Part shown: positions 14,591 through 20,693 of the stretch, one piece after another
Position numbering within the stretch: the stretch's first letter is position 1
How the letters are laid out: each line of letters starts with the position of its first letter
Virus record (IMG/VR): IMGVR_UViG_3300033182_000670
Span: 1 to 20,693 of that record
Reading direction: 5' to 3' (one strand)
Length of the DNA stretch: 20,693 nt
DNA from: a virus
Position numbers and translations under genes: made by a program
The notes under the pieces: generated by a model
Databases searched by the model: none
Seen by the model: the letters and a program-made list of their open reading frames with translations, nothing else
Told to the model about the DNA's origin: nothing

Positions 14591-15636
14591 TCTTCTATGC
14601 AGATACGATTGGACTTGATCCACCAACTGAAGGATATATTAATTCTTCTATAGAGGTAAAATTTAGTGAGAATACAACTCAGTTTGGCGATGAAACTCGG
14701 AAATTTGGCACTATTGCTGATTCATCATTCGTATCTGATTTTACAACTAATAATCCGACTGTTTTATATGATTATAGGAATGTACTAGCTACAGATTTCA
14801 CAAGCCTAAAAACATTCCAAACATCCGCTGGGAAAACCCTACTTACATCTGATGGTGAAATATTCAAAACTGCTGATGCAGATACGGATATTGGCCTAAG
14901 ATATCAATTTAGCGAAACTTCTCAATTTGACTTTATAGCTTTCCATGTCACAAGAGTTGGCACTGCTGTAGACATTAAAATATATGAAACCTCGAAAAAT
15001 GTAGTTTTCCAAACTTCGGCAGGGAAAAACCTAGTCACCTCTGATGGCGCATTATTCTTAACCGCAGATAATCCTGATGATAGCTTGGGGCTGATATTAG
15101 AAGGTAATATCTCATCTACAGGATGGACAGTAATTGACTTCGGTAGTTTGCAATTCTATGATTCAGATGGTAAGAAATTTCAACCATCTGACGCTGACGG
15201 ACTCAGAACTTCACCTGTTGGATCACAGGAGCAGATTAATACTGATATTATATTGGTTCAATTAAGCGGAAGTTTTGACATTGATATTTCAGAGATATTT
15301 ATGGGTGTCAAATACGAACCTGGTAGGAATTTTGATATTGGCACGAAAACAGGAGCCACTCCATTGGTTAATGTTCAGGAAAGCTATTCAGGGCGTGAAT
15401 ATGCCAACCGAGTAGAAAGCGATAAGGAGTTTTTTGAATATCAATACAATGAGGCAGATAATACAATCAAAACCAATTTTGAAAGCCTATTACAAGACTC
15501 TCAGGACCAAAGAATTCTTATAAATGATGATGATGAATATCGCTATGTATTTAGCGATAAGAGATCATTCGACGCTACGGAAATAGCATCAGGCGTGTAT
15601 GATATAAAACTAAGATTCAGTAACGATAGATTCTAA
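14587..15636 (+). CDS. Minor tail protein with duplicated FQTSAGK insert
   Basis: A 349-residue beta-rich protein. Residues 77-97 (FQTSAGKTLLTSDGEIF...) and 141-161 (FQTSAGKNLVTSDGALF...) are near-identical inserts, with a weaker relative at 190-205 (FYDSDGKKFQPSDADG). Its C-terminal ~115 residues match those of the 10629-11399 product in motif order, showing common ancestry. It directly follows the fibre and overlaps it by four bases (ATGA). It is probably at the tail tip. Its last 27 bases overlap the convergent integrase gene on the other strand. Confidence 0.7.
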   Translation: MIFYADTIGLDPPTEGYINSSIEVKFSENTTQFGDETRKFGTIADSSFVSDFTTNNPTVLYDYRNVLATDFTSLKTFQTSAGKTLLTSDGEIFKTADADTDIGLRYQFSETSQFDFIAFHVTRVGTAVDIKIYETSKNVVFQTSAGKNLVTSDGALFLTADNPDDSLGLILEGNISSTGWTVIDFGSLQFYDSDGKKFQPSDADGLRTSPVGSQEQINTDIILVQLSGSFDIDISEIFMGVKYEPGRNFDIGTKTGATPLVNVQESYSGREYANRVESDKEFFEYQYNEADNTIKTNFESLLQDSQDQRILINDDDEYRYVFSDKRSFDATEIASGVYDIKLRFSNDRF

Positions 15637-16611
15637 ATGTCTAGCCACTGAATCGTATAGCTCTCTTTTCTCTTCCGACAATAAATCCACATAGTATTTT
15701 ACTGTAATATCTACGCTACTGTGGTCCAAAAACTTGGACACATGAAATATTGAAGACCCTTGCCTTAACAATATTGCACCACTAGCCCTGCGAAGATCAT
15801 GTGTGGTGAATTGAATACCTGTAGATTCACGAAGTTCGTTAAATCGATTCCGAACATAGTTTTCGGTGTATGGTATTGGGGCATCACGATCCATCCAATT
15901 ATATAATATATCCATAACATCCTGAGATACGCTAACCCAAGACTTGCGATTGCCTTTGCGCCTCATGGCGATTCTATTGTTTTGAAAGTCCACATCCTGC
16001 CAAGTAAAGTTTTCCTGTAGTGGTTCTGACCTTCTTGCGCCTGTTAATAGATAGAATCTCAATAGATTATGTGTATCGCCTTTAGCATTGTTTAACAAGA
16101 TGCGAATCTCATCATCCGACAGTATGTTAATCTTTTTCTTAGCTATCTTATAATATATAACAGGGGGTTCCTCAGATATTTTCCCCATCTTTTTCGCCCA
16201 ACTGAATGCACTCTTGATTGCACGAAGGTCTGCATTGACACCATTCTTTTGACGGTGAAGGTTGTTCTGTTTAAAATGCTCGATGTTAGCTTTTTCTACC
16301 AATGTGGTTGCGGATTCGGATTTTACCAAATTATTCAACGCAGTCTCGTACCGCACCTTAGTTGACTTGCTTAAATTATTTTCAGCGTGAACGATAAAGT
16401 CTTTTAACAATTCCCCTAAAGTATACTTATTGCTGAACTTACGAGGAATATCAATCCCAAGATAATCTGCCTCAATAATATTTTCTACCTTAGCAAAGAA
16501 TTTCTTGGCCTCAGTTTTACCTGCAATCAGGCGTTTGCGCTGCTTATTTAACTGTGGGTCTTGGAAAGTGACCAAATATTTATTGGACTCTATATGTCTT
16601 AATGTAGCCAT
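15610..16611 (-). CDS. int: Tyrosine-family site-specific integrase
   Basis: A 333-residue integrase. Catalytic residues visible are Arg193 (in TGARRSEP), a candidate Lys219 or Lys223, His271-x-x-Arg274 (THDLRRASG), His297 (FLDHSS) and Tyr306, nine residues after His297, as in lambda Int. The N-terminal part has a core-binding domain (~65-160). Length is typical of phage integrases. The start ATG lies at the minus-strand position 16611, preceded by GGGAG. It would catalyse attP x attB recombination, implying a temperate phage. It converges on the tail operon with a 27-base overlap of coding ends and no clear terminator. The att core was not identified. Confidence 0.95.
   Translation of the reverse strand: MATLRHIESNKYLVTFQDPQLNKQRKRLIAGKTEAKKFFAKVENIIEADYLGIDIPRKFSNKYTLGELLKDFIVHAENNLSKSTKVRYETALNNLVKSESATTLVEKANIEHFKQNNLHRQKNGVNADLRAIKSAFSWAKKMGKISEEPPVIYYKIAKKKINILSDDEIRILLNNAKGDTHNLLRFYLLTGARRSEPLQENFTWQDVDFQNNRIAMRRKGNRKSWVSVSQDVMDILYNWMDRDAPIPYTENYVRNRFNELRESTGIQFTTHDLRRASGAILLRQGSSIFHVSKFLDHSSVDITVKYYVDLLSEEKRELYDSVARHLESIVTES
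15614..15654. repeat. Inverted repeat across the tail/integrase convergent overlap
   Basis: GATTCAGT (15614-15621) and ACTGAATC (15647-15654) are perfect inverted copies around 25 bases, with a smaller nested TAGAT/GTCTA stem. The tail gene's stop falls in the loop. There is no T-run, so it is not a standard intrinsic terminator. Confidence 0.5.
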
Positions 16612-17206: not shown

Positions 17207-17312
17207 TCTATTGATGGATATAGCTCATTTTATCGTTTTCGAATTAAAGAATAGGAAAGAGGCAGTTCTGATCGGACTGTTACTTGGCCTATTAATCTAC
17301 ACAAATCTCTAA
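17187..17312 (+). CDS. 41-residue predicted membrane protein
   Basis: Begins at ATG 17187 behind GGAGAGG. An amphipathic N-terminus (MKGMLSNLLMDIAHFIVFEL) is followed by the charged KNRKEA and a hydrophobic C-terminal helix (VLIGLLLGLLIYTNL). This looks like a tail-anchored small membrane protein. It overlaps the previous gene and ends 13 bases before the SSB-like gene. Its function is unknown; superinfection exclusion or host-envelope interaction are possibilities only. It is easily missed because it is short. Confidence 0.6.
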   Translation: MKGMLSNLLMDIAHFIVFELKNRKEAVLIGLLLGLLIYTNL

Positions 17313-17325
17313 AATAGGAGTTAAA

Positions 17326-19129: not shown

Positions 19130-19569
19130 GTTGGGTTAAACGATATCCCGAAGACCTAAGATTTATTAAAGATAATCCTGGTGTTTATGCGATGTATAAT
19201 CAGGATGATAATATTATATATATTGGACACTCAAAGCAGTTACTTACAAGAATAAAGAATCACGAAAAATCGGGCGAATACGCCTATTTAAAGCAAAAGT
19301 ATACACTTACTATAGATGATGCCCAAAAACTCGAATCTAGGCTAATTAAGAGGCTTAAACCGTCCCTAAATCGGGCATTATCTCAAGGGGTGGAGTCTGA
19401 AACATATACCACAATGAATTTAAAGGTTCGTGAGGACTTACATCGGGCTTTGAAGATATATTGTGCAGGTAATGATGTGAAGATTCCTGAGGGTGTGTTT
19501 ATGATACTGAGAAAAGCATTGAAAGAAGAAATTAACTACCTGAAAGGATATGGAAATGCCGAGAACTAA
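19126..19569 (+). CDS. GIY-YIG endonuclease with ribbon-helix-helix-like C-terminus
   Basis: A 147-residue protein. G19-V20-Y21 and Y32-I33-G34 form the GIY-YIG pair; Arg42, Glu70 and Asn82 fit the catalytic positions of this nuclease fold. Residues ~94-140 (starting TMNLKVREDLHRALKIYCAG) have the strand-helix-helix spacing of ribbon-helix-helix DNA-binding domains, which often dimerise. The combination suggests a sequence-specific nuclease, either a free-standing homing type or one that attacks competing DNA. It is embedded between the DUF1599 and PD-(D/E)XK genes with ATGA overlap upstream, which favours a working operon gene over a recent invader. Confidence 0.8.
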   Translation: MSWVKRYPEDLRFIKDNPGVYAMYNQDDNIIYIGHSKQLLTRIKNHEKSGEYAYLKQKYTLTIDDAQKLESRLIKRLKPSLNRALSQGVESETYTTMNLKVREDLHRALKIYCAGNDVKIPEGVFMILRKALKEEINYLKGYGNAEN

Positions 19570-20206
19570 AGCACATGGTGGCGCATATGTCACAAAGGAT
19601 GGGAAGAAGTGTCGTTCAGTAACTACGATACTTGGAAATAACTTAGGATGGAACAAGCAGGTACTGATTGGTTGGGCTAGGAGGCAGGCGTTGGCAGGGA
19701 ATGATCCTGAGCTTGTTTTGAAGGAGGCTGCCAATATTGGAACGCTGACCCACTATCTCGTGGAGTGTGATATTAAGGGTGAAAAAGCAGATACATCCAC
19801 ATATAGTCAGGAGCAAATCGAAAAGGCTATGAATGGGTTCGAAGGATTTAAGCATTGGAGAAAGGCATATAAGCCTGAATTTATTGGTACGGAGTTGGTA
19901 TTGGTCGATGATGAGTTAGCCGTTGGTGGTACTGCGGATCAGGTGGCTAGGATTAGCGGTAAGGTGGTGTTGGGTGATATTAAAACAGCCAAGTTTCTAT
20001 ATGATGACCATATAATACAGTTGGGTGCTTATTGCCATATGTACGAAAGGATTCAGCCTAAGGTTAAGATTGAATATGGGTATATCTTGAGGCTTGATAA
20101 AGAAACAGGCTCATTTACCCACCATAATATTAATCGCAAGGAATTAGATTGGGGTTGGAAGGTGTTCCTTGCGTGCTTGGAATTGGATAAACTGAAGAAG
20201 GGATAG
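19550..20206 (+). CDS. PD-(D/E)XK exonuclease, RecB/Cas4-like
   Basis: A 218-residue nuclease. After 'SVTTILGNN' (residues 23-31), the motifs are His68 in 'IGTLTHYLVEC', Glu115, Asp130 in 'GGTADQV', Asp143-x-Lys145 in 'VLGDIKTAK' and Gln157 with Tyr161. This is the Cas4/RecB-type exonuclease order (H, D, DxK, QxxxY). No iron-sulphur cysteine set is visible, so it is the simpler phage version. Likely role is recombination or DNA processing with the SSB-like protein. ATG at 19550 and 19556 are both possible starts, and the gene overlaps the GIY-YIG gene by 20 bases. Confidence 0.82.
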   Translation: MEMPRTKAHGGAYVTKDGKKCRSVTTILGNNLGWNKQVLIGWARRQALAGNDPELVLKEAANIGTLTHYLVECDIKGEKADTSTYSQEQIEKAMNGFEGFKHWRKAYKPEFIGTELVLVDDELAVGGTADQVARISGKVVLGDIKTAKFLYDDHIIQLGAYCHMYERIQPKVKIEYGYILRLDKETGSFTHHNINRKELDWGWKVFLACLELDKLKKG

Positions 20207-20210
20207 TGAC

Positions 20211-20299
20211 CAACGAACGAGTGTATGGCAAGTAAGCCACGCACCAAACTTTGAATTGAAACAATAACTTGATTGGCTTATTTGCTATACACATTGTTG
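20211..20299. repeat. Imperfect stem-loop resembling an integron attC site
   Basis: GTGTATGGCAAGTAAGCCA (20221-20239) and TGGCTTATTTGCTATACAC (20274-20292) pair along 19 positions, 17 Watson-Crick and two G-T, around a 34-base loop. Outside these, CAAC (20211-20214) and GTTG (20296-20299) form a second short pair, separated by unpaired 6- and 3-base spacers. Outer AAC/GTT boxes, spacer, inner arms and variable loop form the plan of attC recombination sites. The outer boxes are only partly complementary. Confidence 0.5.
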
Positions 20300-20335
20300 T
20301 ATGCTGTGGCGGTCTTAAAAAATAAACAGACGATT

Positions 20336-20693
20336 ATGGGAAGTATAAAAGGACAAAAACACAACCCGTACATAGAAGGAAAGTACGGACACTTAAACCC
20401 AAATGATGTAGTATTTACACCTGATTGGTTAGCAAAACAGATTGTAGATATGTTTCCGATTGAAGGCAAGGTGTTAGAACCATGTAAAGGTGAAGGAGCA
20501 TTTTTTCAATACTTACCTGATGATTCTGATTGGTGCGAAATAGCAGAAGGGAAAAACTATTATGATTACGAAAAGAAAGTAGATTGGATTGTAACCAACC
20601 CACCTTACTCTGATTTTAACAGATTTCTTGACCATAGTTTTGACCTTGCAGACAACATAGTATTACTTGTGCCTGTTGCAAAAATGTTCAAGA
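20336..20693 (+). CDS. Adenine-specific DNA methyltransferase, partial (3' end outside window)
   Basis: The frame from ATG 20336 is open to the last base, giving 119 residues. Motif X-like 'FTP' (27-29), motif I 'LEPCKGEGAFF' (47-57, S-adenosylmethionine binding) and motif IV 'NPPY' (88-91, catalytic) are in the order of N6-adenine methyltransferases. The target sequence cannot be read. Unlike most upstream genes it has no overlap with its neighbour and no Shine-Dalgarno sequence before its ATG. It follows the attC-like stem-loop, so it may be an acquired unit. Protection from host restriction is the usual phage role. Confidence 0.85.
   Translation, partial: MGSIKGQKHNPYIEGKYGHLNPNDVVFTPDWLAKQIVDMFPIEGKVLEPCKGEGAFFQYLPDDSDWCEIAEGKNYYDYEKKVDWIVTNPPYSDFNRFLDHSFDLADNIVLLVPVAKMFK

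Follow-up and report, generated by a model that had tools for sequence, protein, structure and literature searches.

The hairpin directly ahead of a DNA methyltransferase gene in this virus record is very likely to be the attC-type site at which a mobile gene cassette with the methyltransferase as cargo recombines, within an integron system of Bacteroidota and their phages; its activity is inferred. We read the site in this way because its relatives show paired cassette ends, phage loci with the upstream gene but neither hairpin nor methyltransferase, and arrays accompanied by an attI and an integrase. For the site family, the data document a structure supported by covariation, cassettes with paired ends, arrays, attI, linkage to a recombinase and complete phage-borne sets. 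The window (the whole stretch of DNA that was analysed, a 20,693-base virus record) stops part-way through the methyltransferase gene.

The hairpin and its surroundings

The hairpin is a 19-position imperfect inverted repeat (arms at 20221-20239 and 20274-20292) between AAC and GTT boxes, directly 5′ of the methyltransferase gene. The features of the locus are listed below, with the basis of each in brackets.

19550..20206, + strand, upstream phage gene, putative left boundary of the cassette, with its stop codon within the outer flank (relatives L111-L118)
20200..20214, + strand, left outer flank (N4-T-x-N6) and AAC box (sequence)
20211-20214, + strand, outer box CAAC (sequence)
20215..20220, + strand, 5′ unpaired spacer GAACGA (sequence, fold)
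20221..20239, + strand, 5′ arm of the attC-like stem, GTGTATGGCAAGTAAGCCA (sequence, fold, covariance model)
20240..20273, + strand, terminal loop of 34 nt, variable across the site family (fold)
20274..20292, + strand, 3′ arm, TGGCTTATTTGCTATACAC (sequence, family alignment)
20293..20295, + strand, 3′ unpaired spacer ATT, 3 nt (sequence, fold)
20296-20299, + strand, outer box GTTG (sequence)
20296..20310, + strand, GTT box and 12-nt cassette-start sequence GTATGC-T-G-TGGC (sequence, position-8 G rule)
20336..20692, + strand, DNA methyltransferase gene with an NPPY motif, inferred cassette cargo, cut by the contig end (ORF, relatives)

The window stem is Watson-Crick paired at 17/19 positions, and the other two are G.T, which is a wobble on the + strand and C.A on the - strand. 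Folded as RNA, positions 20207-20335 reach -37.8 kcal/mol, whereas shuffles average -22.6 (z -4.92; 0/200 shuffles as good). The minus (bottom) strand, which a first-pass annotation made without database searches had proposed to fold, gives a weaker DNA fold (z -1.6), which is partly explained by the two arm positions at which G.T pairing is possible only on the + strand.

That annotation had described a 19-position inverted repeat with outer CAAC/GTTG boxes and unpaired spacers, and this held by sequence, fold and the covariance model R1 (below). Its claim that no gap in the early region other than that of the hairpin exceeds 100 bases failed: a second intergenic gap, at 17207-17325, spans 119 nt and contains no ORF of 50 aa or more. 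Its proposal of an attC-type architecture held in a refined, non-canonical form, with RRRY not kept, asymmetric spacers and an associated integrase without the I2 insert. The canonical fold, an imperfect hairpin in which inner and outer boxes pair while the spacers do not, is present; the canonical attC boxes (R′ GTTRRRY and R″ RYYYAAC) are not, the window motifs in recombination polarity being GTTGGTC and ATACAAC, each 6/7. No match was returned by a tRNA/tmRNA search of the hairpin region, an exact-motif scan of viral contigs for the site, or nucleotide searches of phage and plasmid collections.

Model R1 finds one site in the window and no second copy, the sequence downstream of the methyltransferase lying beyond the contig end; a phage CALIN would require at least two attC sites without an integrase. 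Neither an I2-less recombinase nor an attI is present in the truncated contig. The phage's own integrase (15610-16611) was rejected as the recombinase, as it is unrelated to IntI both by profile score (19 bits to the IntI profile) and by its position far outside in the tree.

A structurally conserved site family

Covariance model R1 was built from four well-aligned sites, all outside the window; it was limited to these because MAFFT placed the arms wrongly when the two site classes were aligned jointly, and its E-values should be taken as approximate. The window site, which was excluded from training, scores 28.6 bits (E 4e-4), and is therefore not a chance match. The covariance-model check suggested in the first-pass annotation thus succeeded with a model of the family itself and not with a standard attC model.

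Matches to R1 were found in 76/148 genomes sampled from the phylum of a Bacteroidota metagenome-assembled genome (MAG; L018), often in arrays, and they cluster, for example at least 10 in 21 kb of G064 contig 1. The control phylum, that of a MAG named Clostridia, yielded matches in 4/149 genomes, one being that MAG. Several sites each were seen in the control-phylum genomes G278 (four within 28 kb of contig 1) and G201, for which real spread and misbinning are both possible; in general, MAG contigs may be misbinned and virus records mis-sorted.

In the alignment of 126 sites, pairing is kept in 93.3 % of stem cells, double changes occur in 21/24 pairs, and the covariation score is 0.686 vs at most 0.093 when the alignment is slid. 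Fitting to the model biases this alignment in favour of the structure, but the margin is wide. One T-A pair and one G.U (G.T) pair are near-invariant, the latter as G.T in 119/126 sites, and the window arms retain both. A variable mismatch follows pair 4 of the stem in the site alignment, extrahelical bases being outside the assessment. RRRY is not conserved, relatives keeping only GTT (GTTGTAT, GTTATAT, GTTACCT), and the family spacers are asymmetric.

Paired cassette ends, attI and polarity

When the 12 nt after GTT were compared with the complement of the 12-nt stretch that precedes the next AAC in 48 neighbouring site pairs, cassette starts matched their own ends at 8.5/12 positions vs 4.6 for mismatched pairs, a value reached in 0/10,000 permutations. 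By position after GTT, 52 cassettes matched at 94-100 % for positions 1-6, 58 % at position 7, 6 % at position 8 and 81-87 % at positions 9-12, with background from position 13 onward. As these cassettes were selected on positions 1-6, the independent evidence is that of positions 7-13 together with the permutation test on the 48 pairs; 63 cassettes from viral contigs gave the same positional profile. At position 8 the start is G as a rule and the end is always T (all 52 and all 63 cassettes).

The cassette start in the window agrees with the 12-nt position profile of the family, the position-8 T of family cassette ends is present in the window flank at 20204, and a scan of the window sequence found no GTTGGTCAC-matching start elsewhere. 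The cassette-end rule predicts GCCAT(A/T)GCATACAAC after the methyltransferase stop. We also observed that the two near-invariant G.T pairs of the family, one in the stem and one at outer-box position 8, lie on the same strand in surroundings that covary. It is likely that these pairs allow the recombinase to distinguish the strands.

The stretch between the array and the recombinase gene usually contains an attI-like box (AACTNNTTATAT) that has no hairpin, and hairpin-less AAC boxes (AACTNNTTATATG and the like) are found between the last cassette and the recombinase. In 14/17 loci checked, the hairpin-less AAC box closes a cassette with a complementary start, often ~100 bp from the recombinase. 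The family thus meets the integron criterion of an attI adjoining a tyrosine recombinase at the array end. Because of the attI box and the ends of the last cassettes, we take the hairpin to be part of the cassette that lies towards its GTT box, and place the crossover at the AAC side. In this polarity, chromosomal arrays mostly show ordinary gene orientation, and most phage ORFs run in the reverse direction, preceded by the hairpin; ORFs in the 52 cassettes are reverse in 34 and forward in 18. The attI-derived polarity makes the window hairpin part of the methyltransferase cassette and leaves the phage gene on its left outside; positions 20200..20214 would then be the crossover (R′) side, an inference from the polarity of relatives, with the flank itself being phage DNA. 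The hairpin as the close of a cassette of the upstream gene was considered and rejected, as the attI and last-cassette ends show the opposite polarity.

A rival explanation is that the hairpin is an RNA element of the phage early operon, such as a terminator, riboswitch or processing hairpin. The strong RNA fold of the + strand, and G.U pairs that favour that strand, speak for it. However, an Rfam search of the hairpin region gave no match, no T-run directly follows the window stem, and family hairpins stand at ORFs of both orientations. An RNA element would also leave the paired ends, the attI and the linkage to a recombinase unexplained, and we regard it as very unlikely.

The methyltransferase elsewhere and a possible empty site

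Relatives of the methyltransferase were gathered from viral contigs and from one scan of bacterial genomes. The gene again lies 3′ of such a hairpin in phage contigs L002 and L004, which hold several family sites each, and in the Bacteroidota MAG contig L018. From a reading of its ORFs, L002 encodes what we take to be a terminase-like and an endolysin-like protein. The cassette ends in L002 are complementary (GTTATATGCAGTGG / CCATTGCATATAAC), as are the box pairs of L004 (GTTACCTACTGGTG / CACTTGTAGGTAAC) and L018 (GTTAGCTGCTGCTG / CAGTTGCAGCTAAC), and in these contigs the end box sits before or after the methyltransferase stop. The boxes vary between the three contigs yet match within each, which we interpret as the signature of a circularising cassette. 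The integron-cassette criterion, a start box complementary to the end box, is therefore met in these three contigs and across the family. For the window, whose own end pair is off the contig, the cassette status of the methyltransferase is inferred from these relatives. Most other methyltransferase relatives (L003, L005-L017, L019 and L020) have no matching boxes, so the gene also occurs outside cassettes.

Two further observations concern these contigs. A second, more distant methyltransferase (52 % identity) directly follows the first at L009:3001-3982, and an ORF resembling an IS605-type TnpB (C-terminal CxxC zinc-ribbon motif) lies at L018:1420-2595, just past the third cassette of the array.

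Phage contigs L111-L118 have the upstream gene (82-85 % identity) with no hairpin or methyltransferase after it; the next gene is one that we take, from its sequence, to be primase-like, GIY-YIG-like or other. The L111 sequence after the stop, TGACCGAC, resembles window TGACCAAC up to the box (7/8 bases). L111 could be an empty-site homologue of the window left flank, but so short a match is only suggestive.

The complementary ends of 14-15 nt could, taken alone, be read as the terminal inverted repeats of a transposon or MITE-like unit around the methyltransferase. Such a unit is very unlikely, as end sequences vary from copy to copy but remain complementary inside any one of them, and as the units are arranged head-to-tail, with genes separated by a single hairpin and with an attI in common beside a tyrosine recombinase.

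With a recombination cassette as the preferred reading, the remaining claims of the first-pass annotation can be judged. Methyltransferase as cassette cargo is supported by the complementary ends in L002, L004 and L018. Cassette capture, or a phage-borne recombination site, is also supported, with the hairpin belonging to the methyltransferase's own cassette and the ORF reversed relative to recombination polarity. The second copy that it suggested looking for after the methyltransferase is absent from the window, but the contig ends inside the gene. Similar elements in relatives were found, including L002, L004, L018, L208, P12002L and the 76/148 Bacteroidota genomes. It had held that a missing covariance hit and a missing second element, together with a stem common to unrelated genes of many phages as a terminator or RNA element, would refute the idea; the stem does occur at many unrelated genes, but as cassette boundaries.

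A tyrosine recombinase without I2

Searching the 148 Bacteroidota genomes with the integron integrase profile TIGR02249 revealed, beside the site clusters, matches of ~100-125 bits that were split around the middle of the profile. The array recombinases retain the catalytic residues, and in alignment are without an insert of roughly 35-40 residues that contains I2; the insert is missing in all 19 viral recombinases whose reading frame covered the region. Against TIGR02249 the I2-less recombinases score 140-211 bits (cut-off 265), with the match split at the missing insert, so the I2 criterion is not met. Their best NCBIfam match is NF040815, ‘site-specific tyrosine recombinase/integron integrase’ (174-226 bits, cut-off 220). 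An integron-like subgroup in which the insert is not fully conserved has been reported in a recombinase classification (PMC8138268), and may possibly represent the same proteins.

Sixteen of 32 I2-less recombinases lie within 10 kb of a listed site vs 0.41 expected (maximum 6 in 200,000 simulations), and the other 16 have no listed site nearby. The count covers only genomes with a listed site, and both the recombinase and the site lists are partial. A tree was built from array recombinases, IntI, Bacteroidota Xer, two archaeal-type XerA and the Vibrio cholerae IntI from the PDB. Support was 96/91 for the array recombinases, 100/99 for IntI, and 99/94 for the split of both together from Xer and XerA. 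As the tree was rooted by midpoint, the placement of the I2-less recombinase as the nearest relative (sister) of IntI is conditional on a root outside the group formed by the two.

Many chromosomal I2-less recombinases (noted in L091, L092, L096, L097, L100, L104 and L107) have an extra N-terminal stretch of ~60-80 residues (RIAVxFxxxxxLIxxIKxxxGAxWSxxxxxWHLP), which is apparently repeated in L094 and L103. In those recombinases that were scanned, Pfam named only SAM-like and catalytic domains. Separately, a true integron integrase above the TIGR02249 cut-off occurs in 46/148 Bacteroidota genomes, with R1-type sites not near it; this is far above the few Bacteroidetes integrons of the IntegronFinder 2.0 paper (PMC9024848).

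Complete sets in phages, and the classical alternative

Among viral-database loci encoding the recombinase, of which the 80 best of 267 were examined, 58/80 contain one or more R1 sites, on the recombinase strand and mostly upstream; the exceptions are two sites in L147 and one in L208. In many of these loci AACTATTATATAT is found shortly before the recombinase start. A terminase is present in 11/35 recombinase-encoding viral records with one family and in 8/25 with another, including contigs of 246, 256, 266 and 362 kb. Records without a terminase match could be fragments, carry other terminases or be mis-sorted host DNA.

Contig L208 (266 kb, with a terminase hit) carries a near-copy of the window site: 24/25 bases are identical between window 20279-20303 (3′ arm and box) and L208:1098-1122. 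The order in L208 is near-copy site, small cassette ending TTGCATACAAC, further sites, attI and recombinase. Several family sites are also present in the lytic Polaribacter phage P12002L, and one of them is identical to window 20212-20235 at 23/24 bases. Phage attC clusters with methyltransferase cargo, including those of P12002L, have already been described, and one of two tested P12002L sites recombined with attI1 through the class 1 IntI1 (Qi et al. 2023, PMC9892861); we did not map the assayed sites to coordinates.

These assays support a further rival: that the site is an ordinary integron attC, captured from a bacterial integron and recognised by a classical IntI with I2, with the nearby I2-less recombinases being incidental. 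The P12002L sites were called by standard HattCI/Infernal tools, and this IntI1-assayed phage carries the site family of the window. Against this, R1 finds nothing in class 1 cassettes (arr-3, dfrA27, aadA16), in two other IntI plasmids or in ten Bacteroidota IntI loci, and the family does not conserve RRRY. Within the partial lists, none of 47 true IntI genes has a listed site closer than 20 kb, and only 1/10 IntI genomes has sites. We consider a classical attC unlikely, and on the same counts, with R1 silent at IntI loci, true IntI was rejected as the recombinase partner.

Proposed mechanism and significance

Our data are consistent with a model in which a cassette of the I2-less system is mobilised as a single folded strand; strand, crossover point, activity, and supply of the recombinase by phage or host are all inferred, and no excision, circle or recombination was observed. 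One cassette strand would fold into the hairpin, most likely the + strand, because the invariant G.T pairs can form on it. The I2-less tyrosine recombinase would link the folded site, at its AAC side, either with an attI box in double-stranded form (AACTNNTTATAT) or with a second site, and strand exchange would then excise the cassette as a circle or insert it. The window may represent the array-distal end, in the order phage gene, hairpin, methyltransferase and contig end, where the cassette would add a methyltransferase, plausibly with an anti-restriction role, to the phage early operon.

The window itself is a further example of the published phage attC-cassette phenomenon. A bolder reading, which we think likely with activity again inferred, is that Bacteroidota host a whole sister lineage of integrons, which phages also carry as complete sets (some on contigs above 200 kb) and whose recombinase, having lost I2 or never possessed it, moves cassettes through attC-like sites folded from single strands. 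The open-access literature that we searched contains no description of a dedicated I2-less integrase with attI or of its phage-borne form. I2 is regarded as the innovation that enabled hairpin recombination: its deletion inactivates IntI1, no other protein is known with it, and Xer proteins are the nearest relatives of integron integrases (PMC7790495). An I2-less sister clade tied to attC-like arrays and attI makes the I2-gain step in integron evolution directly testable. The IntegronFinder 2.0 survey reported few integrons in Bacteroidota (PMC9024848); our findings suggest that an abundant cassette system exists there which would escape integrase-based tools, and that phages also possess this system and may trade cassettes such as methyltransferases with their hosts.

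Comparison with known systems

The array recombinases share a domain layout without I2 with XerA, XerC and XerD (NF040815, TIGR02224, TIGR02225), but the tested Xer proteins split from array recombinases and IntI in the tree (99/94) and, to our knowledge, Xer has not been linked to attC-like arrays. With classical integrons (class 1, Vibrio) the system has in common single-gene cassettes, a folded site in which boxes pair and mismatches are conserved, cassette ends that are complementary, a hairpin-less attI beside a tyrosine recombinase, and a recombinase sister to IntI. It differs from them in that the recombinase is without the I2 insert, RRRY is not kept, spacers are ~5-6 rather than 1-3 nt, a fixed mismatch occurs at extended-box position 8, and phage ORFs are often reversed. 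The class 1 aadA16 cassette also shows extended end complementarity, but no fixed mismatch in that example. The closest published counterparts are the phage CALINs (attC clusters without an integrase; PMC9892861), which likewise have attC-like sites between small genes, methyltransferase cargo and a Bacteroidota phage. Whereas Qi et al. assayed IntI1, used standard attC models and described clusters without an integrase in virulent phages, the family arrays reported here are accompanied by an I2-less recombinase and an attI, in phage contigs as well.
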